Shown here one piece after another: positions 11,498 to 61,580 of a stretch of DNA of 64,000 nucleotides. The translations under genes and the position numbers were made by a program. A model generated the notes under the pieces. The model ran no database searches. It saw nothing but the letters and a program-made list of their open reading frames with translations, and had not been told where the DNA came from. This DNA is from Brachyspira aalborgi (lineage in GTDB: Bacteria > Spirochaetota > Brachyspiria > Brachyspirales > Brachyspiraceae): assembly GCF_008016455.1 (NCBI RefSeq), contig NZ_SAXU01000001.1, forward strand, positions 2,314,423 to 2,378,422. The letters are read 5' to 3'. Each line of letters begins with the position of its first letter. Positions within the stretch are counted from its first letter, which is position 1.

Positions 11498-11703
11498 ATG
11501 ATAATTAAGAATACTGTAAATTCGTTAAGCAAAGCAAAGCAAAGCAAAGCAAAGCAAAGCAAAGCAAACCTTTAAATTTTTTTCAACATTATGTTTATTT
11601 AATAAATATTATATTTTATTTTCTAAAAAATATTTTAAGTCTATATTTAATATTATTAAAAGAAAAATTAATTTCTTTTTGTTTTCAAAATATTTTTATA
11701 TAA
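11498..11703 (+). CDS. Leader ORF A, frame broken by repeat number (presently OFF)
   Basis: The ATG at 11498 opens a peptide MIIKNTVNSLSKAKQS that enters the AAAGC array. With the present repeat number it stops at 11573-11575. The neighbouring frame stays open for 45 codons after the array (11566-11700) and stops at 11701-11703, 28 bases before the GTPase start codon. One unit fewer, or two more, would join the ATG to that frame. The ON-frame peptide is hydrophobic and rich in Phe, Ile and Leu. The ribosome site before the ATG is weak. Its reality rests on the same architecture at four other loci. Confidence 0.5.
11527..11568 (+). repeat. AAAGC pentanucleotide tandem array (leader A)
   Basis: Seven perfect AAAGC units occupy 11531-11565, with a partial unit on each side. 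The preceding 20 bases (AATACTGTAAATTCGTTAAG) recur, with small changes, beside the arrays at 20553 (opposite strand) and 41571. The array is not a multiple of three per unit, so gain or loss of units changes the reading frame of leader A. Confidence 0.95.
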
Positions 11704-20391: not shown

Positions 20392-20636
20392 TTAAAATTT
20401 TAAGTTATTTATAACTAAACAAGAAATTTTTATTTTCCTTGATAAGCTATCAAAATTAAATTTGATTAAAGTTAAAAAAGATTTAACTAAATTTAAAAAA
20501 TATTTTTGAAATAAAAAGTTAAAATAATTATAAATTAAAATATATAATAATAGCTTTGCTTTGCTTTGCTTTGCTTTGCTTTGCTTTGCTTTGCTTTGCT
20601 TTGCTTAACAAATTTACAGTATTTGTTATTTATCAT
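20392..20636 (-). CDS. Leader ORF B, frame broken by repeat number (presently OFF)
   Basis: The ATG at 20636 has a ribosome site AAGGT eight bases upstream and opens MINNKYCKFVKQSKAKQS. With ten AAAGC units it reads on into a stop at 20535. The frame two bases over is open for 52 codons (20550-20395) and ends in a TAA (20394-20392) that overlaps the AAGGAG of the TM2 gene. Nine or twelve units would connect them. Fifty-two stop-free codons are unlikely by chance in DNA this AT-rich. The ON peptide is Phe/Leu/Asn-rich with no recognisable domain. Confidence 0.55.
20553..20606 (-). repeat. AAAGC pentanucleotide tandem array (leader B)
   Basis: Ten perfect units (GCTTT on the plus strand, AAAGC in the direction of the leader) plus a partial one. 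The bases upstream in leader direction match the leader-A flank (AATACTGTAAATTTGTTAAG), with one extra base before it that shifts the reading frame relative to leader A. Confidence 0.95.
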
Positions 20637-22970: not shown

Positions 22971-23499
22971 ATGATAGTAAAATATTTATCTTATAGTTTG
23001 GGTTACCGTCAACCGTCAACCGTCAACCGTCAACCGTCAACCGTCAACCGTCAACCGTCAACATGAGATAAATTTATTCTTTGCAAAATTTTTATATAAT
23101 TTAGTTCAGTTATTTTTTAATGTAATTCATTGCGGGCTTAAAAAATTTAAGGCTTGGCAATCAACTTTTAAAAAAATTAATTTTAATAATTTTGAAATAA
23201 TAAGTCTTTTAGATTATGGCTTTTGCTATAATTACGGCTTTAATCATAATGAGAATAATCTAAAAAATTATAATTCTTCGGTTAATGAAAATTATAATTT
23301 TGCATTCGGTGAAAATTGCAATTTCGTAAAATCTTTTAATTACGATTTTGTAAACATTGAAAGCAAAAATTATAATTTGTCAAAAATCGGAAATTATAAT
23401 TCTTTAAATGGTTCTTGTTATGGTTTTTGGCGTATTTATTGCATTTGCGATAATTTGAAGGATTTTTTATTTAATACGAAAAATCAAAAAAAATTTTAA
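22971..23499 (+). CDS. ORF C: Asn/Tyr-rich repeat protein, frame broken by a 7-bp repeat (presently OFF)
   Basis: ATG at 22971 opens MIVKYLSYSLGY and enters the CCGTCAA array; with eight units it stops at 23064-23066. The frame one base over is open from 23062 through 145 codons to TAA 23497-23499, far longer than chance allows here, and has no usable start codon of its own between its upstream stop (22978) and the array. Seven or ten units would restore one protein of about 175 residues. Its C-terminal half is built of degenerate 8-residue units such as NENYNFAF, GENCNFVK, SFNYDFVN and IGNYNSLN, suggesting a stacked beta structure. No signal peptide or known family is evident. It ends 14 bases before the TRAP gene, just ahead of its AAGGAGAG site. 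Confidence 0.75.
23006..23061 (+). repeat. CCGTCAA heptanucleotide tandem array
   Basis: Eight perfect 7-bp units. The unit is GC-rich compared with its surroundings. Three units encode the peptide RQPSTVN in any frame, so the encoded peptide stays the same and only the downstream frame changes with copy number. Confidence 0.97.
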
Positions 23500-51141: not shown

Positions 51142-52287
51142 ATGGATAGTAGTTATTTAAATAAAAATATAATATCGGTTCCTTATTCTTTGATAAGAGA
51201 TTTAACGGAAAAAGCGGAAAAAATTAAAGACAGCATAACGCTTACGATTGGCGAGCCAGATTTACAGCCTCCGAAAGAACTTATTGAATATGCATGCGAA
51301 TACGCTAAAACTCATAAACTACCTTACACTCATGCGGGCGGCGGCGAGAAAATAAGAAATTTGGTAGCCGAACATTATAATAAATATTACAAAGCTAAAA
51401 CTAACGCTAATTGCGTGACTATGCATATAGGTTCTATGGAAGGACTTTCTTCAATATTAAAGACGATATTAAATCCCGATGACGAGGTTATACTTCCGAC
51501 TCCTTTTTTCTCTCCTTATGAACAGATAATAAAAATAGCTCATGGAAAAGCCGTTTATTTGGATACAAGAAGCGATAATTTTGTAATAAAGCCCGAATCT
51601 ATAGAAAAAGTTTTAACGAATAAAACTAAAGCGATTCTTTTCAGCAATCCTGGAAATCCTTCGGGATATATGCTAAAAAAGGAAGAGGTTGACGAGCTTG
51701 TTAAATATTTTGAAAAGAAAAATATTTTTGTAATGGTTGATGAAATTTACTCTGCAATTTCTTTTTATCCTTTCATCTCTTTCGCATCCTACGAATCGAT
51801 AAAAGATAAAGTTATAATTTTAAATGGTTTTTCAAAATCGCATTCTATGACGGGCTGGAGAATCGGTTATAGCATAGCGCCTGCAGAAATTAGAAAATAT
51901 ATTTTGAATGCAAGTTTTAATAATGTCGGAAGTATGGTTTCTTTATCTTGCGCAATCGCCGAATACGCTTTAGAAAAATTTCCTGTTATTACCGAGTTTA
52001 GAGATACTTATAGAGAGCGAGCTTTGACTATGTCTAAAGATTTAGCCGAATTGGGATTTGAAATTATAGAACCGAGAGGAGCTTTTTATTTATTTGTCGG
52101 ATACGATAAATTTTCAAAAAAATCTTCTTTAGATTTTTCTTTAGAATTATTGGATAAAACTGGAGTCGCTGTAGTTCCTGGAGAAGCGTTTGCCGAAGAC
52201 GGATATTTTAGAATAGCATTAACTCAAGATATGCCTTTATTAAAAGAAGCCGTTAATCGTATAAAAGGTTTTATAGGAAAAATATAA
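51142..52287 (+). CDS. PLP aminotransferase, probably N-acetyl-LL-diaminopimelate aminotransferase
   Basis: 381 residues. Class I/II fold with TIGEPDLQPPKEL, THAGGGEKIR, NPGNPSG and the PLP Lys232 in LNGFSKSHSMTGWRIGY. The position just after dapH points to the acetylated diaminopimelate route (PatA/DapX), though general aspartate-type activity cannot be excluded by sequence. It ends 12 bases before the -35 box of leader D. Confidence 0.85.
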   Translation: MDSSYLNKNIISVPYSLIRDLTEKAEKIKDSITLTIGEPDLQPPKELIEYACEYAKTHKLPYTHAGGGEKIRNLVAEHYNKYYKAKTNANCVTMHIGSMEGLSSILKTILNPDDEVILPTPFFSPYEQIIKIAHGKAVYLDTRSDNFVIKPESIEKVLTNKTKAILFSNPGNPSGYMLKKEEVDELVKYFEKKNIFVMVDEIYSAISFYPFISFASYESIKDKVIILNGFSKSHSMTGWRIGYSIAPAEIRKYILNASFNNVGSMVSLSCAIAEYALEKFPVITEFRDTYRERALTMSKDLAELGFEIIEPRGAFYLFVGYDKFSKKSSLDFSLELLDKTGVAVVPGEAFAEDGYFRIALTQDMPLLKEAVNRIKGFIGKI

Positions 52288-52298
52288 GTTTTAGACTA

Positions 52299-52326
52299 TT
52301 GACATTTTTATTAAATATGTTAGAAT
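52299..52326 (+). promoter_or_regulatory. Promoter of leader D
   Basis: TTGACA (52299-52304), 16-base spacer, TAGAAT (52321-52326). It lies 33 bases before the leader ATG at 52359. Confidence 0.75.
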
Positions 52327-52358
52327 AAATTAAATAAATAATTATTGAGGTAACAAAA

Positions 52359-52530
52359 ATGATAACGGTGAATAAATTCTCATCTCATCTCATCTCATCT
52401 CATCTCATCTCATCTCATCTCATCTCATTGCTATAATTATAGCAAGTTTTGTCATTTTAAATTTTTTATTACAAAATTTAATTATATATTTAGAAATCTG
52501 AAAGAGCATGGTTTTGGAGTTAAATCATGA
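52359..52530 (+). CDS. Leader ORF D, frame broken by repeat number (presently OFF)
   Basis: ATG at 52359 with a good GAGGT ribosome site eight bases upstream opens MITVNKFSSH and enters a (TCTCA)10 array. At ten units it stops at 52434-52436. The frame one base over is open for 33 codons after the array and ends in a TGA (52528-52530) that overlaps the next gene's start as ATGA, the classic coupling arrangement. Eleven units would connect ATG and long frame. The ribosome site of the next gene (TTGGAG) lies inside the ON frame. Confidence 0.6.
52378..52427 (+). repeat. TCTCA pentanucleotide tandem array (leader D)
   Basis: Ten perfect TCTCA units. It is preceded by AATAAATTCTCAT, also found just before the array of leader E (GATAAATTCTCAT), which ties the two as relatives. 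Confidence 0.97.
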
Positions 52531-55514
52531 TTCTTTTCGACATATTATATAATATAACAATTTATCCAATAGAGTTTATAATAGAAATTGTATTTTATTT
52601 ATTTAATAATGTATTCAAATCTGGTTATGCTACAAGTTTATTCTTTTTAAGTTTAATTATAAATTTTATCTCTTTACCTTTATACAATATAGCAGAAAGT
52701 TGGCAGGCAAAAGAAAGAGCTATTCAAGAAAAAATGAAACCTATGATTGATAATATAAAAGCGGTTTATAAAGGCGACCAAAGATATTTATTAATTAGAG
52801 CTTGTCAAAGAATTAACGGCTATAAAACAATTTATGCATTCAGAGGAACTTTAGGACTGCTTATACAAATTCCTTTTTTCTTGGCTGCTTATAATTTTAT
52901 TCATAATCTCTCGGGCTTGCAACTCGGCAGTTTTTTATTTATAAAAGATTTTTCAAAGCCTGACGGAATATTAAATATTGGAGATATTAGCGTTAATATT
53001 TTGCCATTTATTATGACATTATTTAGTTTATTAGCTGGTTTGGTTTATAGCAAAAAATTAAGATTTAAGGAAAGTTTGCCGTTATATATTGTTTCGTTAA
53101 TATTTTTAGTTTTGCTTTATAATTCGCCTTCTGGTTTAGTATTTTATTGGACATTGAATTGTTTATTTTCATTGATAAAAAATATTTTTATAGAATATAA
53201 ATTATATAAAGTCTTTGTAGTGAATAAATATAAGATTTTAAGAGGTTATAATATATTTTTTATAATATTAACAATTATTTTTATTTTGCTTTTATCTTTA
53301 GGAAATATTGAGAGAAAAGCTTATTTATACGATTTTTCTTTTGAAGAAGTATTACAAGAAAAAAATATGATGTATTTATTCCGATTAAATTTTTATAGCA
53401 AAATATTTAGAAATAGCGATATTTATGGACTTAAAGTTGATACGAATAAATTAAATAACGATTCAATTATAGATATAAAATTTGACTATAATGGCAGTCC
53501 TTATGGAAATATAATATTAAAGGATTATATTGAAAACATAGGAAAAATAGAAGTTTATTATAAATTATTTATTAAAAAATATATTATAAATATTCTTATA
53601 ATATTATTTATTTTATTTATATTATTCAATAGTTATAAATACATTTTAAAAATATTTTCGGATAGTTTTTTAGAGAAAAGAAATTTATTGATTATAAGTT
53701 CCTGTTTGGTTATAAGCGTATTATCGGGGCTATTTATTTCAAGTTCTTTAATCGGAAATTCGCCGACAGAATTTAAAAGTCCTTTCGATTTAATAATAAA
53801 TGATTTATCTATGAGTTTGGGATTATTTTTATTTTATCCGTTATTTATTTATGTTTTATTTTCAGAAAATATAAAAAATTATTTAACTTTATTATTAATA
53901 TTCGTAGCTTCTTTTGTTTTGGTAAATACATTTATAATGAAAGGAAATTATATAAATATTAACGCGGATTTTGTATTTGATAATACAGATTTATTGAAAG
54001 CTTCATTAAAAGAAATATTATTAACGATTATTTTAGCAGTTGTTTTAATTTCAATAATTATTTTAATCATTAAAAAGAATAAAGCGATATTTTTAATTAA
54101 TATTTATTCTATAGTTTTATTGGTTTTAATAAGCATTTCAATATTTGATATTTCAAAAATAATTAAAGAACATAATAAATTGAGCGATAGCCAAATAGAG
54201 AGCGATAAACCTTCCACTACAAAAATATTTAATATTTCAAAAACTGGCGAAAATGTATTTGTATTTGTTTTGGACAGAGCGATTAATTCGTATTGGCTTG
54301 ACGCTTTTGAGAGATTTACTAATTATAAAAAAGATTTTGACGGATTTGTATTTTATCCTAATAATGTTTCTTTTTCACAGTCAACCATAAGTATTGGCTC
54401 ATTATATGGCGGATACGATTATTTACCTTATGAAATGAGTATTGACGGCGGTTATAATATTACTAAATTCCATAACGAAGCGTTGCTTACAATTCCTTTG
54501 GCTTTAGAAAAGTATAATTATAAATCTTCTGTGATTGACCCTCCATATGAAAACTTATTGGGTGATACATATAAGAAAGTATTTAAAGATTATACTAATA
54601 TATCAGTTTATAATAGTTCTTCAATACTTAATTATAGTTTGAATAATTACCTAAATTTGGATAGTAATTTTAATATAGAAGAATTAGCTAAATTAGAACA
54701 AAAAAATAAAATAATAAGATTTTCCATATTTAGAATGCTTCCAATTAATTTTAGAGCTGATTTTTATAGAGATAAAAGATGGTTTTTAACTTCTTCATCT
54801 TTCATAAGAATTAACTCAAGCATAAAATATTATTCTATGTTATTATCAACCCCCTATTTTCTTAATACAAAGAAAAGCGGTAATTATTGTAATGTTATAT
54901 ACAATATTATAACTCATGAACCTGCTTTCTTTTCTTCGGATTTTTTGCCTCATTTGGAATTAAATGAAGTTGATAATAAGGATATGATTATTTTTAAAGA
55001 CGATAATTCAGTCAGACATTTTTATGCAAATATTGCTTCTATTAATTGTATGACAAATTTTATAAGTTATTTAAAAGAAAACGATATTTATGATAATACT
55101 AAAATAATAATCGTTTCGGACCATGGGGCTGGAGTTAATACTACTTCCACAAATAAAAATATAAATTTTATTAATCCTTATAACGCTTTACTAATGTATA
55201 AAGATTTTAATTCTAGAGGCGAAATCAAAATAGAAACAAATTTCATGACAATAGCCGATACTCCATATTTAGCCACAAAACATATACCGAATATACAAAA
55301 TCCGTTTAATAATAAATTGATTACCAACGATTATAAAAACAAAGGTGTTTATTTAATAAGAGTTAATTCTTGGAGACCTGAAGGGCAATTTTCAAATCGC
55401 TATAATTTTAACCAATATTATTATGTTAAAGATAATATTTTTGATATTAATAATTGGAAAAAATTTGTTGTAGATTGGAAAACTAAAGAAACAAAGGAAA
55501 TTGAATTAAAATGA
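52527..55514 (+). CDS. YidC/Oxa1-like domain fused to a sulfatase-like phosphotransferase
   Basis: 995 residues. Residues about 1-235 match YidC/Oxa1 insertases: helices at about 7-30 and 33-55, then the cytoplasmic WQAKERAIQEKMKPMIDNIK hairpin, GLLIQIPFFLAAYNFIHNL and the NSPSGLVFYWTLNCLFSLIKN end. Further helices follow (about 245-265, 350-370, 387-407, 425-465, 490-545). The C-terminal third is an alkaline-phosphatase superfamily domain: VFVFVLDRAINSYW (about 577-590), SQSTISIGSLYGG and VSDHGAGVN (Asp865, His866), like LtaS-type enzymes. I infer a transferase of glycerol- or ethanolamine-phosphate groups onto a surface glycan. First gene behind leader D. Confidence 0.85.
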   Translation: MILFDILYNITIYPIEFIIEIVFYLFNNVFKSGYATSLFFLSLIINFISLPLYNIAESWQAKERAIQEKMKPMIDNIKAVYKGDQRYLLIRACQRINGYKTIYAFRGTLGLLIQIPFFLAAYNFIHNLSGLQLGSFLFIKDFSKPDGILNIGDISVNILPFIMTLFSLLAGLVYSKKLRFKESLPLYIVSLIFLVLLYNSPSGLVFYWTLNCLFSLIKNIFIEYKLYKVFVVNKYKILRGYNIFFIILTIIFILLLSLGNIERKAYLYDFSFEEVLQEKNMMYLFRLNFYSKIFRNSDIYGLKVDTNKLNNDSIIDIKFDYNGSPYGNIILKDYIENIGKIEVYYKLFIKKYIINILIILFILFILFNSYKYILKIFSDSFLEKRNLLIISSCLVISVLSGLFISSSLIGNSPTEFKSPFDLIINDLSMSLGLFLFYPLFIYVLFSENIKNYLTLLLIFVASFVLVNTFIMKGNYININADFVFDNTDLLKASLKEILLTIILAVVLISIIILIIKKNKAIFLINIYSIVLLVLISISIFDISKIIKEHNKLSDSQIESDKPSTTKIFNISKTGENVFVFVLDRAINSYWLDAFERFTNYKKDFDGFVFYPNNVSFSQSTISIGSLYGGYDYLPYEMSIDGGYNITKFHNEALLTIPLALEKYNYKSSVIDPPYENLLGDTYKKVFKDYTNISVYNSSSILNYSLNNYLNLDSNFNIEELAKLEQKNKIIRFSIFRMLPINFRADFYRDKRWFLTSSSFIRINSSIKYYSMLLSTPYFLNTKKSGNYCNVIYNIITHEPAFFSSDFLPHLELNEVDNKDMIIFKDDNSVRHFYANIASINCMTNFISYLKENDIYDNTKIIIVSDHGAGVNTTSTNKNINFINPYNALLMYKDFNSRGEIKIETNFMTIADTPYLATKHIPNIQNPFNNKLITNDYKNKGVYLIRVNSWRPEGQFSNRYNFNQYYYVKDNIFDINNWKKFVVDWKTKETKEIELK

Positions 55515-55549
55515 TTAAATTTTTTAATAAATTTTTAAAAGAATTTTAA
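55511..55549 (+). CDS. 12-residue coupling mini-cistron
   Basis: An ATG overlapping the stop of the YidC-sulfatase gene (ATGA) opens a 12-codon ORF (MIKFFNKFLKEF) whose stop overlaps the AAGGAG of the next gene. It could hand ribosomes from one gene to the next. No ribosome site of its own is apparent. The segment around it was copied to 59311-59438. Confidence 0.35.
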   Translation: MIKFFNKFLKEF

Positions 55550-55558
55550 GGAGTAGAA

Positions 55559-56830
55559 ATGATTTTATCCATTGTAGTTTTATTTATAATAATTCAAAGC
55601 AGTCTTTTTTGCTATATTGACCCTGGCACAGGAAGTTTGCTTTTTTCGGCATTATTTGGAATAATCGGAACTTTATTCTTTTTGTCGAAAGCGCTTTTAA
55701 TAAAATTAAAGACTTTTTCTTTTGCTGATAAAATAAATAAAAAAGAAAATATCTCTAAAGCTAAAATAATAATTTACGGCGAAGATAAAAGATATTATAA
55801 TGTGTTTAAGCCAATCATAGAAGAATTAATAAATTTAGAAATTCCTACGATTTATTATAGCTCAAGCTATGACGATAAAATTTTTGAAATAAAAAGCGAT
55901 TTTCTTAAAAGCGAATTTATAGGAACGGGAAATAAAGCTTATGCGAAATTAAATTTTATAGAAGCGGATATTTGTTTAATGACGACTCCGAATTTAGATG
56001 TATTTCAATTAAAGCGCTCTAAAGGAGTTAAGAAATATGTTCATATAACGCATTCGTCAGCGGAAACTTCAACATATTGTTTATATTCTTTAGATTTTTT
56101 CGATGCGGTATTTTTAAATGGCGAACATCAAATAAGAGATATTAGAGAATTGGAAAATAAAAGAAATACTATAATTAAAGATTTATATGTGGTAGGAAAT
56201 CCTTATTTGGACGAACTTTCAAAAATGAAAGAAACGATAACAAAAGAAAATAATAATAAAAAGACTATTCTTATAGCTCCTTCTTGGGGAATGAATTGTT
56301 TATTTAGAAGGTTTGGCGAAAAGTTATTAGACAATATAGTTAACTCCGATTATAATATTATTATAAGACCTCATCCTCAATCTTTAATATCGGATAAAGA
56401 TATTATTGATAAATTTCAAAACAGATATAAATATAAAAATAATGTAGAGTGGGATTTCAATAGAGTTAATATTTATTCTCTTTCTAAAGCCGATATAATG
56501 ATTTCAGATTTTTCGGGAGTAATATTCGATTACGCTTTTCTTTTTGAAAAACCCGTAATAATACCAAGTTTTACTTTCGATAAAAGAGGAACGGACGCTA
56601 TAGAAATAGACGAGGAAGTTTGGACTTTTGAAACCATCCCTAAAATAAGTTTTAAATTAGATGAAAATAATTTTTCTAATATTTCACAAATAATAGAAGA
56701 TTCTATTAATAATGAAACATTAAAAAATAATATTTTAAAAGCTAAAGAAGAAGCGTATATGTATGAAGGGCAGGCTTCAAAAAGAGCGGCTCAATTTCTA
56801 AACGATATGCTTATAACGATTAATAATTAG
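55559..56830 (+). CDS. CDP-glycerol:glycerophosphotransferase family protein
   Basis: 423 residues. An N-terminal membrane anchor (residues 1-45, two hydrophobic stretches with CYIDPGTGSLL in between) precedes a TagB/TagF-type domain: HITHSSAETSTYC, NPYLDE, ILIAPSWG, IIRPHPQS and the diagnostic SDFSGVIFDYAFLFEKPVI. Family role: transfers glycerol phosphate or a similar polyol phosphate to a glycan. It fits with the sulfatase/LtaS-like partners in building a teichoic-acid-like surface modification. Confidence 0.88.
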   Translation: MILSIVVLFIIIQSSLFCYIDPGTGSLLFSALFGIIGTLFFLSKALLIKLKTFSFADKINKKENISKAKIIIYGEDKRYYNVFKPIIEELINLEIPTIYYSSSYDDKIFEIKSDFLKSEFIGTGNKAYAKLNFIEADICLMTTPNLDVFQLKRSKGVKKYVHITHSSAETSTYCLYSLDFFDAVFLNGEHQIRDIRELENKRNTIIKDLYVVGNPYLDELSKMKETITKENNNKKTILIAPSWGMNCLFRRFGEKLLDNIVNSDYNIIIRPHPQSLISDKDIIDKFQNRYKYKNNVEWDFNRVNIYSLSKADIMISDFSGVIFDYAFLFEKPVIIPSFTFDKRGTDAIEIDEEVWTFETIPKISFKLDENNFSNISQIIEDSINNETLKNNILKAKEEAYMYEGQASKRAAQFLNDMLITINN

Positions 56831-56843
56831 CGAGGATATTAAA

Positions 56844-58313
56844 ATGAAAGCTATAATATTAGCCGCTGGTATGGGAACGAGACTCTCTCCTATGACTTTA
56901 TTAAAACCAAAACCTTTGCTTGAAATTAAAGGAAAAACCATTTTAGAAAATATGATAAAATTTTTAAATCGTGGAGGAATAAACGATATTACCGTAGTTA
57001 CGGGTTATAAACATGAATTGTTTGACGAATATAAAGAAAAATTAGGATTTAAAAAAGTCGTATATAAAGATTATAAAAATAAAAATAGCAGCTCTTCTCT
57101 AAAATTTGTAATAGACGAAATAGAAAAAGGAACTATAATATTGAACGGAGATTTATTTATAAACAAATCTTTTATTGAATATATAAAACCGAATATTTCT
57201 CAATTATTATCTCAACAAATTACCGAAGGAGTAATTTCTTGGGGATATATAATAGACAGCAATTTTAAATTAATAGATATAGATACAAACGCTATAAACG
57301 GATACGGAGACGGAATAGCGATATTTGATAATGAAGAAGATTTAAAGATTTTGAAAAAAGAATTAATAAATTGCAGCGATGAAGAATATTGGGAATATTG
57401 TATATTAAGAGCTATTGATAAAATAAATTTCTACTCTTTTAATTATGACGATATTTATACGGAAATAGATTCGTTTAAAGACGCCTTATATCATAATTTA
57501 TTAACTCCCGAAGAGATAGCACAACAATGCAGTGACGATGGAAAAATAGAAAGACTCGCTGGAATAACAAATATTAATTATAAGATTAAATTTTTAAATG
57601 AATATAAGGTTATAAGAATTCCTGGCAAAGGAACTGAAAATATAATAGACAGAACTTCGGAAAAAGAAATTTTAAATATTTTATACGATAAAGATATAGT
57701 TCCTAAAAGCGATTTTTACGATAGCGATATAAAATTAACCGATTATTTAGAAGGTTATAGGTCTTTAGATTTTGACGACTTAAAAAATTACGAGACAATT
57801 TTTCCTTTAATAATTAAACAAATGAAAAAACTTCATTCTATGCCACACGATAATTATAAAAATTTTAATGTTATATCTATGATAGAAGAAATTAAAAAAT
57901 ACGAGAAACTTGCAAATATAATTTTGGTTACAAAAATAGAACATAAATTTTTGCTTAATATAGCAAGAAAAATGGACGAGGGTAAACAAGTTTTATGCCA
58001 TAGAGATTTGCAACTTCCTAATATAATGTATAACGGCAAAGAAATAAAATTTGTAGATTTTGAATATTCTGGATTTTCTTCAATACTTTGGGAAATCGGA
58101 AACTTTACGGCGGAATTAGAATTAAATGACGAACAAATTAATAAATTTATAGAATTATATAAAGACATAACTTATAGAGAAATAATCGAAGGACAATTAA
58201 TGTCTAATTATGTATGGGCTTTATGGGGATGGATTTACGATTCAATAGATTTGGGAAGAAATTATTTAACAAGATTTCATTATAATCTAAATTATTTAAT
58301 GAAAAGTAATTAG
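56844..58313 (+). CDS. LicC-LicA fusion: cytidylyltransferase plus choline kinase-like protein
   Basis: 489 residues. Residues 1-230 form a nucleotidyltransferase (ILAAGMGTRLSPMTLLKPKP, ILNGDLFI) like LicC choline-phosphate cytidylyltransferase. Residues about 235-489 form a choline/ethanolamine kinase fold with the Brenner motif HRDLQLPN (His386, Asp388) and the metal-binding FVDFEYSG (Asp405). Together they would phosphorylate choline and make CDP-choline. The gene is followed 11 bases later by a DMT permease, as expected for a LicB-type importer. Substrate could also be ethanolamine or another amino alcohol. Confidence 0.87.
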   Translation: MKAIILAAGMGTRLSPMTLLKPKPLLEIKGKTILENMIKFLNRGGINDITVVTGYKHELFDEYKEKLGFKKVVYKDYKNKNSSSSLKFVIDEIEKGTIILNGDLFINKSFIEYIKPNISQLLSQQITEGVISWGYIIDSNFKLIDIDTNAINGYGDGIAIFDNEEDLKILKKELINCSDEEYWEYCILRAIDKINFYSFNYDDIYTEIDSFKDALYHNLLTPEEIAQQCSDDGKIERLAGITNINYKIKFLNEYKVIRIPGKGTENIIDRTSEKEILNILYDKDIVPKSDFYDSDIKLTDYLEGYRSLDFDDLKNYETIFPLIIKQMKKLHSMPHDNYKNFNVISMIEEIKKYEKLANIILVTKIEHKFLLNIARKMDEGKQVLCHRDLQLPNIMYNGKEIKFVDFEYSGFSSILWEIGNFTAELELNDEQINKFIELYKDITYREIIEGQLMSNYVWALWGWIYDSIDLGRNYLTRFHYNLNYLMKSN

Positions 58314-58324
58314 GATAAAATATA

Positions 58325-59200
58325 ATGAAAAGAGATAAAATTTTAGGACATACTTTTGCATTTTTAAGCGTTTTATTCTGGTCTTCTTTATATGTTTCTA
58401 CAAAAATACTGCTTGAAAGTTTTAATCCGCTTGAATTGTTGGTTTTGCAATTTTGTATGGGATATATTCTATTGCTCATAATTAAACCTAAAAGACTAAA
58501 ATTAAATAATAAAAAAGAAGAAATATATTTTGCTCTCGCGGGATTAACGGGAATAACTATTTATAATTTATTTTTAAATTTAGCTATGAGTTATTCGCTC
58601 GCTTCAAATGTAAGCGTTATAATCGCCGCAGCTCCATTATTCACGGGAATATTTTCGTTTATATTGAGAATTGAAAAGCCTTATATTAGTTTTTTTATAG
58701 GTTTTATAGTTTCTATTATTGGAATTACTATATTAAGTTTTAACGGACAAGCCGAACTTAAATTAAATCCTTTAGGAGATATTTTAGCTATAGTCTCAAG
58801 CATAGGTTGGGGACTTTATTCGGTTATAATAAAAAATATAACGGATATGAAATACGATATTATTTTATCCACAAGAAAAGTAATATTTTATGGAATAATA
58901 TTTATGATTCCGTCTTTTCTATTTTTAGATTTTCACCCTAATTTTAAAGCGTTTGCAAATCCTATAACTTTATTTAATATGATATTCTTGGCTACATTTG
59001 CTTCTGGAATATGTTTTATAATATGGAATAAAGCTACCGATTTGATAGGAGTTATTAAAACAAATATATATGTTTATTTAACTCCCGTAATTACAATATT
59101 TGTTTCTATAATAGTATTGAAAGAACATATAACGATTATTGCAATTGTAGGCATTGCATTAACTTTAGCTGGCGTTATAATTTCAGAGTTAAGATATTAA
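58325..59200 (+). CDS. DMT-family permease, candidate choline importer (LicB-like)
   Basis: 291 residues with ten predicted helices in two EamA repeats (WSSLYVSTKILLESFNPLELL opens the first; GDILAIVSSIGWGLYSVIIKN opens the second). By sequence it is a general EamA/DMT transporter. Its position after the LicC-LicA fusion suggests it brings in choline or a related amino alcohol, like LicB in Haemophilus and streptococci. Confidence 0.85.
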   Translation: MKRDKILGHTFAFLSVLFWSSLYVSTKILLESFNPLELLVLQFCMGYILLLIIKPKRLKLNNKKEEIYFALAGLTGITIYNLFLNLAMSYSLASNVSVIIAAAPLFTGIFSFILRIEKPYISFFIGFIVSIIGITILSFNGQAELKLNPLGDILAIVSSIGWGLYSVIIKNITDMKYDIILSTRKVIFYGIIFMIPSFLFLDFHPNFKAFANPITLFNMIFLATFASGICFIIWNKATDLIGVIKTNIYVYLTPVITIFVSIIVLKEHITIIAIVGIALTLAGVIISELRY

Positions 59201-59310
59201 ATTTAAAATTATATTGATAAAATTCTTTAATTATTTATAATATTAAACAATTCTAATATTTTTAATTTTAAGGAAAAATTTTTATGAATATTTTTTGTTT
59301 TACAAATTAA

Positions 59311-59438
59311 TTGGAAGACTAAAAAAATAAAAGAAATTGATTTAAAGTGATTAAATTTTTTTAAAAGAATTTTAAGGAGTAAAAATGATTTTATCCGTTG
59401 TAGTTTTATTTATAATAATTCAAAGCAGTCTTTTTTGC
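59311..59438 (+). pseudogene. Remnant copy of the YidC-sulfatase / TagF-like gene junction
   Basis: This stretch repeats 55476-55612 (the 3' end of the sulfatase gene, the ribosome site AAGGAGT and the first 18 codons of the TagF-like gene) with a few changes and an internal gap. It keeps an ATG at 59385 (MILSVVVLFIIIQSSLFC) but soon leaves the homology and stops at 59463. It is the scar of a lost or exchanged gene pair. The rest of the gap 59201-59542 shows only a possible promoter. Confidence 0.8.
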
Positions 59439-59542
59439 AAAATAATAGCTCTAAAATATTTTTAAAAATTACTTGATTTACAAAATAAAATATATTATCA
59501 TTTAAAATCAATATTTAACTTTTATAATTTGCGGAGATTGAA

Positions 59543-61282
59543 TTGAAAATTAAAAAAATATTATATAATTTTTATATTAACTCTTTTATAATTATTTCAA
59601 TATTATATTTTACGATAACTCAATTTTTACTTCCGTCACTTTCGATTGACAGATTTAAAATAAGTTTTATAGATATATTATATATTTATTTATTTTCTTT
59701 AATTTCTTATTTTCTTTCAAATAAAAAATTGGTAATCTCTTATTTGTTTATTATAGTTTCGGTTTTTTCATTTTTTACAATAGAACCTTTAGGAATAACT
59801 ATTTTAACTAAACCGATATTTTTTACAGATATGGAATATTTATATCCTTCGCTAATTGAAGTTTTGCCATTTTATATGCAAATAATTACGATAGCGGCTA
59901 CAATATTATATTTTTCTTCGCTTTTTGCATTTTCAATATATTTTTTATATAGATTAATTAAAATATTTTTGATTGATAAGAAAAAAGGAATTATATTATT
60001 TTTTATAATTTTAATTACTACTTATTTATCGTTTTTTAGAGAAGTTAAAATTAATTCTATATATCCAAATTATATTGAAAGAGTAAATAAATTTGGAATA
60101 ATAAATTCAATAAGTTATAGAATTTCTTTCGACAGAGAAAATAATAAAGTAATTGCAAATATTGATAATGTTAAAAATGCGATTGAATTATTAAAAGAAG
60201 TTCAAAATAAAAGAGAGATTTCAAATTTAATTATGCCTTACGATTATACTAATAAAAGAAATGTTTTTATAATTTTTATGGAATCATTTTACGATTATAG
60301 TCATTTTTTAGAATTGTTTGATAAAGACCCTTTTCCAAAAGAATATAGAGAATGGGCTTTACAGTCGTCAAAAGTCGGACCGAACGATGGGAACGGAAGT
60401 TTATTTGCAAGGCTTTCGGGTTTAATTGGAACTTCGCCGATTTATCCGAAAAAACAAAAAAGCAAGGTAAATACCGCTTTGCCTTTTTTAATGAAAAACG
60501 CTGGCTATAAAACAATCGCGCTTGAAGAATGCGGAATAACTTTTAATTTAGACAAATTATTTCCAAATATTGGATTTGAAGAAATTATATTTAACTTGGG
60601 ACTAACAAACATAAAAAATTATATAAAGAATAACGATTTTGAAGAGCCTGTATTCGTTTCTGGATTTACATTTTTGGGGCATGCTGGAAGTCATATAAAA
60701 AATGATTTTAATATTTTTGAAAACAATAAAAGATTTTACGAAAAAATTAATCGAAAAGATAAAAAAGTTTTGCTTGAAACTATGGAAAATTCCGTTATGG
60801 CTGCAATTGATATAATAGAAACTAAAAATATAATTCTTCAAAAATATCCCGATGCGATTATAATTTTTAAGCATGACCATTTATATCCTTATTTGGCGGG
60901 AATGATTTATAATTCTTCTGTAGACGAAAATATAAAAAAAGAATTTTTTGAATCTTACGCTATTAGTCCGCTTTTAATATGGAATGGCAGAAACGGAGCT
61001 TTTAAGTTGGAAGACGGATTTCCGCCCGAAAATATTCCGTTATTTATAGCCGTAAATACTAAAATTAATTGGACGAATTCTATAATTTCGCTTTTATATA
61101 AAGATAAAACGGAAGGAATTATAAGATTTTATAATAATTTTTATACGAACGAAAATAATAAAATTATCCGAATAGAAGTTAGTAAAGAAAGTTTGTCTTA
61201 TAAATATAATTACGCTCAAAGAATTTTATCGGAAGATATTTTAAGAGGCGAAAAATATTTTAACGATATAATAACTCGATAA
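59543..61282 (+). CDS. LtaS-like sulfatase-family membrane phosphotransferase
   Basis: 579 residues starting at TTG behind GCGGAG. Five N-terminal membrane helices (about 12-30, 43-60, 65-90, 110-135, 150-167), then an extracytoplasmic alkaline-phosphatase superfamily domain: NVFIIFMESFYDYS (Glu246, Ser247), the SSKVGPNDGNGSLFARLSGL region in place of the LtaS Thr loop, and IIFKHDHLYPYLAG (about 440). Architecture matches lipoteichoic acid synthases and phosphoethanolamine/phosphoglycerol transferases. Its 3' end is duplicated at 62678-62780. Confidence 0.87.
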   Translation: MKIKKILYNFYINSFIIISILYFTITQFLLPSLSIDRFKISFIDILYIYLFSLISYFLSNKKLVISYLFIIVSVFSFFTIEPLGITILTKPIFFTDMEYLYPSLIEVLPFYMQIITIAATILYFSSLFAFSIYFLYRLIKIFLIDKKKGIILFFIILITTYLSFFREVKINSIYPNYIERVNKFGIINSISYRISFDRENNKVIANIDNVKNAIELLKEVQNKREISNLIMPYDYTNKRNVFIIFMESFYDYSHFLELFDKDPFPKEYREWALQSSKVGPNDGNGSLFARLSGLIGTSPIYPKKQKSKVNTALPFLMKNAGYKTIALEECGITFNLDKLFPNIGFEEIIFNLGLTNIKNYIKNNDFEEPVFVSGFTFLGHAGSHIKNDFNIFENNKRFYEKINRKDKKVLLETMENSVMAAIDIIETKNIILQKYPDAIIIFKHDHLYPYLAGMIYNSSVDENIKKEFFESYAISPLLIWNGRNGAFKLEDGFPPENIPLFIAVNTKINWTNSIISLLYKDKTEGIIRFYNNFYTNENNKIIRIEVSKESLSYKYNYAQRILSEDILRGEKYFNDIITR

Positions 61283-61416: not shown

Positions 61417-61580
61417 ATGAACGCAACGCAACGCAACGCAACGCAACGCAACGCAACGCAACGCAACGCAACCTACAACTATATCTTACAATCAATAATT
61501 ATTTAAAATTTAATTTATCGCTCTTTTTACTTTCGCTATTTATCATTGCAATTTGGGGACTATTCTATGCCTCTATTTAA
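61417..61580 (+). CDS. Leader ORF E, frame broken by repeat number (presently OFF)
   Basis: ATG at 61417 with a strong GGGAG site upstream opens an array-encoded peptide (NATQR repeated). At ten units it stops at 61504-61506. The frame two bases over is open for 35 codons after the array and ends at TAA 61578-61580, overlapping the start of the glycosyltransferase gene (ATG 61567) by 14 bases, so it would carry ribosomes through that gene's TTGGGGA site. Nine or twelve units would connect. The ON peptide is strongly hydrophobic. Confidence 0.55.
61420..61472 (+). repeat. AACGC pentanucleotide tandem array (leader E)
   Basis: Ten perfect AACGC units and a partial one. The flank GATAAATTCTCATG is shared with leader D. 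Confidence 0.97.

Follow-up and report, generated by a model that had tools for sequence, protein, structure and literature searches.

In Haemophilus influenzae, the lic1 locus (licABCD) carries CAAT repeats inside licA, and its LicD performs the transfer reaction. In Streptococcus gallolyticus, phase variation of pil1 and pil3 arises from GCAGA repeats in a leader peptide, through which a hairpin terminator is relieved (PMC3894217). Campylobacter upsaliensis licA carries a poly-G tract (PMC539331), and in the PntC pathway of 2-aminoethylphosphonate tailoring, LicC-like nucleotidyl activation prepares a head group for surface polymers (PMC6697681).

The locus described here (locus D) lies in a stretch of 64,000 nucleotides of Brachyspira aalborgi DNA, which we call the window and whose numbering we use throughout. 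The known system closest to its leader is S. gallolyticus pil1. As in pil1/pil3, surface genes are preceded by a short leader ORF that contains a pentanucleotide array, the reading frame sets the length of the leader, and the short leader corresponds to low expression, here a presumed OFF state read from the sequence alone. Unlike pil1/pil3, locus D has no evident terminator. What is new compared with these loci is that the stop codon of the long leader overlaps the start codon of the gene behind it (ATGA), that the Shine-Dalgarno (SD) sequence and start of the D orthologues in Brachyspira are hidden in a predicted hairpin, and that the arrangement is used many times per genome, with several repeat units.

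With lic1, the locus shares predicted LicA and LicC activities, a probable choline permease and repeat-based switching nearby. The first-pass annotation went further and proposed the same logic as in lic1. This is not supported, since the repeat lies in a separate leader ORF that never fuses with the gene, and since a Pfam search found LicD (PF04991) neither in the genome itself nor in any of 26 Brachyspira genomes. Moreover, the array is located 4.4 kb upstream of LicCA and not within licA, LicC and LicA are fused, and the gene that comes first and is the conserved target encodes a YidC-sulfatase protein. C. upsaliensis licA and the LicCA and TagF-like genes of enterohepatic Helicobacter species also combine phosphocholine-type genes with simple-repeat switching, in gut epsilonproteobacteria, but theirs is a homopolymer in coding sequence, whereas Brachyspira has a leader array.

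Leader D and the start of the YidC-sulfatase gene

A (TCTCA)10 leader standing, with tight spacing, before a YidC-sulfatase fusion, a TagF-like transferase, a LicC-LicA fusion and a DMT permease had already been reported from the first pass, together with a repeat switch in the leader ahead of these genes. Both points are borne out. The tandem-repeat scan of the window places a perfect (TCTCA)10.2 array (period 5, 100% match) at 52378-52428 on the + strand; four + strand ORFs come after the leader, with gaps of 44, 13 and 11 nt, and the frame analysis supports the switch. The point that was missed is that the array forms part of a short leader ORF, which starts at an ATG (52359) and has an SD, GAGG at 52347..52350 (+), 8 nt 5' of this ATG. 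Further upstream, a sigma-70-like, TG-extended promoter is predicted at 52299..52326 (+, TTGACA-16-TAGAAT), by consensus match only (11/12); it is the strongest promoter-like site in a consensus scan of 52200-59700. The array lies about 50 nt downstream of its -10 box.

The unit number sets the length of the leader. At the present number, the leader ORF (52359..52436, +) encodes 25 amino acids (MITVNKFSSHLISSHLISSHLISLL) and ends 8 nt 3' of the array, and the assembly is presumed to show the OFF frame. With one unit added, the presumed ON frame has 58 codons (52359..52530, +), and its TGA, at +4 relative to the ATG with which the YidC-sulfatase gene starts, overlaps that ATG (ATGA). With two units added, the stop is 25 nt upstream of that ATG. 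As in S. gallolyticus, it is thus the long leader that gets to the control element. A fusion between leader and enzyme is impossible at any unit number, because TAA 52521 closes the gene's own frame upstream of its ATG. The gene has an SD of its own (GGAG, 52516-52519), so basal translation is possible in the OFF state. No strain variants of the D array were found in viral contigs.

Folding predicts a hairpin at 52500..52537 (+) that pairs the start codon of the YidC-sulfatase gene and leaves GGAG in the loop. The region 52480-52560 has a minimum free energy of -16.3 and a z-score of -2.81, with 2 of 200 shuffled sequences equally stable. In the relatives, the hairpin is stronger and differently placed: across 13 orthologues, the SD (GGGGG) and the start (ATGATG/GTGATG) are both in the stem, the 5' arm is within the leader ORF, and 92% of cells are paired. 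Four orthologues have folding z-scores of -3.75 to -6.65. C-G/U-A exchanges beside the start codon compensate each other, and covariation amounts to 0.175, compared with 0.137 +- 0.012 after shuffling (0/500) and at most 0.107 for slid versions; this is supportive and not conclusive, as the structure was partly derived from the same sequences and the region is also coding.

These data suggest a model in which locus D varies in phase via translational coupling of the repeat-bearing leader ORF to the YidC-sulfatase gene, a reading to which we give a probability of roughly 0.78. Slipped-strand changes in the number of TCTCA units would shift the leader frame in vivo. In the OFF state, a ribosome would stop just behind the array, and the RNA at the start of the YidC-sulfatase gene would stay folded, with its start codon hidden. 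In the ON state, the ribosome would cross the 5' arm of the hairpin and terminate on the gene's start codon or a few bases from it; the opening of the hairpin and the hand-over of the ribosome would then couple translation of the gene to that of the leader. We infer both leader translation and the strength of this coupling from the frames and signals described above. Each of the TagF-like, LicCA and DMT genes has a start site of its own, and the switch would reach them solely by way of polarity.

A tentative alternative, which we consider rather unlikely, is transcription attenuation as in pil1. A short leader would then permit a terminator to act, either intrinsic or Rho on untranslated RNA, and a long leader would block termination, so that the whole operon, including the TagF-like, LicCA and DMT genes, would be switched. 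The repeat-in-leader logic of this alternative has been proven for pil1/pil3 (PMC3894217), a weak palindrome (TTGCTATAATTATAGCAA) followed by GTTTTG is located directly 3' of the array, and attenuation would best account for the switching of all genes as a block that the first-pass annotation had in mind. However, a scan of 52200-59700 revealed no terminator-like site between leader D and the YidC-sulfatase gene. The structure that is conserved in the orthologues covers the SD and the start and is not a hairpin with a T tract, and the leader stop codons are found at the start codon, not at a hairpin. These observations speak for coupling and against attenuation.

The genes behind the leader

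The first gene (52527..55514, +) encodes a 995-aa fusion of a YidC-like part and a part from the alkaline-phosphatase/sulfatase superfamily. Pfam detects YidC/60KD_IMP at residues 34-223 (E 4.6e-21) and, below its cut-off, a weak sulfatase signal at the C-terminus (E 5e-4). When relatives are added, a PDB search with the profile hits both YidC (E 3.5e-13) and sulfatases (E 3.7e-6), and the Sulfatase domain is clear (E 1.5e-12) in a Helicobacter homologue. The second gene (55559..56830, +) encodes a TagF-like, CDP-alcohol phosphotransferase-like protein of 423 aa with a Glyphos_transf domain (PF04464, E 5e-10, 39.2 bits against a cut-off of 22.1). Its AlphaFold model has TagF 3l7k as its best PDB match (TM 0.51-0.54), which points to a TagF-like GT-B fold.

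The third gene (56844..58313, +) encodes a 489-aa protein with NTP_transferase and Choline_kinase domains (Pfam), a predicted fusion of phosphocholine cytidylyltransferase (LicC) and choline kinase (LicA). Its identification as LicC-LicA stands: the best PDB matches are S. pneumoniae LicC (1jyk) for residues 1-213 and S. pneumoniae LicA (4r77) for residues 232-465. The choline site of LicA is formed by Tyr197, Glu213, Trp251, Trp254 and Asp176 (PMC4364537), to which Y408, E424, W458, W461 and D388 of LicCA correspond, respectively, in a mapping done by hand from the printed alignment; the five residues are invariant in 11 Brachyspira LicCAs. Two positions differ on the LicC side of the pocket, N101 and E184. 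The latter occupies the site of LicC D192, where T. denticola PntC also has Glu (PMC6697681). Choline is thus a likely substrate, judging by the pocket residues, but owing to these two positions not a certain one. The fourth gene (58325..59200, +) encodes an EamA/DMT permease (two EamA matches in Pfam), a probable choline importer by virtue of its LicB-like position and its pairing with LicCA in two phyla, in both Brachyspira and Helicobacter; a sequence comparison with solved structures gave no LicB match and only one uncharacterized chain (5i20, E 0.014).

Since the genus has no LicD, any decoration of a surface polymer would require the TagF-like or the YidC-sulfatase protein as the transferase. 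The domains and the gene neighbourhood suggest that the YidC-sulfatase is probably a membrane phosphotransferase-like protein in a surface-polymer pathway, with a CDP-alcohol head group, presumably choline, supplied via LicCA, and switching it would then be expected to alter the polymer.

Related head-group modules are found next to the same genes elsewhere. In two Brachyspira genomes (L133:4945-9723 and L138:9692-14540), a 2-aminoethylphosphonate module consisting of PEP mutase, TPP decarboxylase, class V aminotransferase and a LicC-like enzyme adjoins the orthologous TagF and YidC-sulfatase genes. This resembles the PntC pathway; the window, in contrast, has LicCA and the DMT permease and not the mutase, decarboxylase and aminotransferase. 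In L134, L135 and L144, LicCA with EutH (identified by Pfam in L134) takes the place of the module. The LicCA, TagF-like and YidC-sulfatase genes also travel together in Helicobacter and Desulfovibrio piger, and the LicCA proteins of Helicobacter and of the window share 55-66% identity. Poly-G tracts of 12-14 occur in the TagF-like gene of H. didelphidarum and H. saguini and in LicCA of H. rappini and H. bilis (L069:5738, L082:6939, L074:11132, L080:11132); a change of frame coincides with the tract, or lies close to it, in L069, L080 and L082.

At 59340-59440, 3' of the DMT gene, lies a decayed copy of the junction between the YidC-sulfatase and TagF-like genes (55480-55610), the scar of an earlier duplication or loss of the cassette; a second YidC-sulfatase remnant is present at G000:C1:1192355-1192642. 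The stretch 59543-61282 encodes a 579-aa protein that has no Pfam match above cut-off and a weak Sulfatase signal (E 0.019). Together with the motifs FMESFYD and KHDH, this signal makes it a candidate for a diverged LtaS-like phosphotransferase.

It is also conceivable, but in our view unlikely, that LicCA serves phosphatidylcholine synthesis and not a surface polymer, its closeness to the switch being incidental. Treponema denticola licCA feeds phosphatidylcholine synthesis, and the B. aalborgi genome has two CDP-alcohol phosphatidyltransferases as well as lacking LicD. Against this speak the company of TagF-like and YidC-sulfatase genes that LicCA keeps in Brachyspira, Helicobacter and D. 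piger, the 2-aminoethylphosphonate module beside the same enzymes in other Brachyspira, and the poly-G tracts in Helicobacter LicCA and TagF.

Repeat arrays in orthologous loci and across the genome

A search for orthologues of the YidC-sulfatase in 26 genomes of the genus yielded ten array loci, including D. At the same place, they carry TCTCA, GTCAACA, ATCAACA or AACAGCA units in 9-32 copies, a range that was read from one genome per species and reflects variation between species only. All ten have at least one frame that stays open until about 14 nt or less from the gene start. In seven of them two alternative frames reach the gene, so it is the passage of the ribosome and not the peptide that seems to be the kept feature. 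The remaining frame ends a few bases from the array in most loci, and a stop in the gene's frame makes a fusion of leader and gene impossible in the loci examined. As assembled, six loci have a gene-reaching frame; in three others the leader ends immediately after the array, and in the last one 30 nt upstream. Three orthologues are without an array (one in G003, two in G008), and all three have an unbroken leader ORF up to the gene start.

The array-bearing leader is conserved together with the YidC-sulfatase gene and not with LicCA. In the relatives L134, L135, L144 and L146, TagF-LicCA is located upstream of the leader, and the order leader, YidC-sulfatase, TagF, LicCA, DMT occurs only in the window and in L140/L068. 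The conserved switch target is the YidC-sulfatase gene rather than LicCA, which counts against the earlier proposal of choline control as a block; that choline decoration is switched as a block at this particular locus is plausible.

Perfect arrays of at least 24 nt were also sought in a genome sample of 864 kb (40 systematic 20-kb stretches plus the window). The sample contains 41 of them, 33 with 5-nt and 8 with 7-nt units, and none of the 41 has a unit divisible by 3. The density is exceptional: the 40 stretches (L153-L192) have 36 arrays in 800 kb, or about 110 per genome by extrapolation, and other sampled Brachyspira have about 4-10 per 400 kb. For 23 comparable arrays (non-fused, leader ATG present, gene 50-230 nt downstream), we asked how often a frame ends -5 to +20 nt from the gene start, with matched array-free genes in 200 draws as the expectation. 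This was the case for 16 of the 23, against 2.1 expected and a maximum of 5 in the 200 draws; an exact ATGA overlap was found for 7 (0.5 expected). One array is counted twice among the 23, once per strand. Once this duplicate is removed and homologous leaders are grouped, 14 independent families remain, of which 10 qualify (P about 3e-8). In three other Brachyspira genomes, 6 of 9 arrays have a gene-reaching frame (0.8 expected). Among seemingly homologous leaders, the unit differs and the gene-reaching frame is kept.

Four of these leader-ORF arrays lie elsewhere in the window: AAGCA at 11527-11568 before a septin/GTPase-like gene, GCTTT/AAGCA at 20553-20606 on the - strand before a TM2 protein gene, ACCGTCA at 23005-23062 before DctP, and AACGC at 61420-61472 before a GT61 gene. 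In each case, one frame stops no more than about 15 nt from the start of the following gene, and the assembly frame is OFF in all four. Overall, 23 of 25 classified switch loci have an OFF frame as assembled, more than a random-frame model of 1/3 would give (p about 0.004). Behind the arrays are genes for, among others, a GT61 glycosyltransferase, an FkbM methyltransferase, a radical SAM protein, periplasmic binding proteins, a variable surface protein, an outer-membrane barrel and the septin/GTPase-like protein. The Serpulina variable surface protein family is represented among the genes of this organism. A folding comparison with controls revealed no additional structure in the start regions of the other coupled loci of this genome, so coupling there may lack a hairpin or work differently. 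A hairpin that hides the ribosome binding site is supported for the D family only, and not as a general property of all coupled loci.

These numbers also bear on the idea that the array alters promoter spacing or is a neutral repeat, with the leader untranslated. Arrays that change promoter spacing exist in other systems. Here, this is very improbable, given the position of the array well past the -10 box, units of solely 5 and 7 nt, gene-reaching frames far above chance, and the leader ORF that is kept in the array-less orthologues. Finally, classical phase variation as in lic1, in which the array frameshifts the switched gene's own coding sequence, does occur in this genome, where five further arrays (AAGCA/ACAGT leaders) are in-frame fusions with the gene, but it is hardly credible for the D family and is ruled out at D itself by the stop in the gene's own frame between array and ATG, which is there at every unit number and has its counterpart in the orthologous array loci examined.

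Proposed phase-variable leaders in the biology of Brachyspira

Beyond locus D, we lean towards the view that Brachyspira has a general and undescribed class of contingency loci, in which phase-variable leader ORFs are coupled to the downstream gene at dozens of loci, with units swapped freely and the coupling frame kept. Our literature search, with subscription journals outside its reach, found no description of this leader design or of repeat-based phase variation in Brachyspira, which is weak evidence of absence. If the model is correct, spirochaetes have an on/off system that is driven by repeats but leaves the protein itself free of them, and a small leader switches a large, intact enzyme. 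Expression should follow the unit number modulo 3, and array lengths would then predict the surface state of an isolate. That the head-group module is associated with repeats both in Brachyspira (leader arrays) and in Helicobacter (poly-G) points to selection, in the gut mucus, for a surface decoration that can be switched. Since this genome has roughly a hundred arrays, isolates with identical gene content may nevertheless show different surface traits, and such differences would matter for Brachyspira typing and vaccine work.
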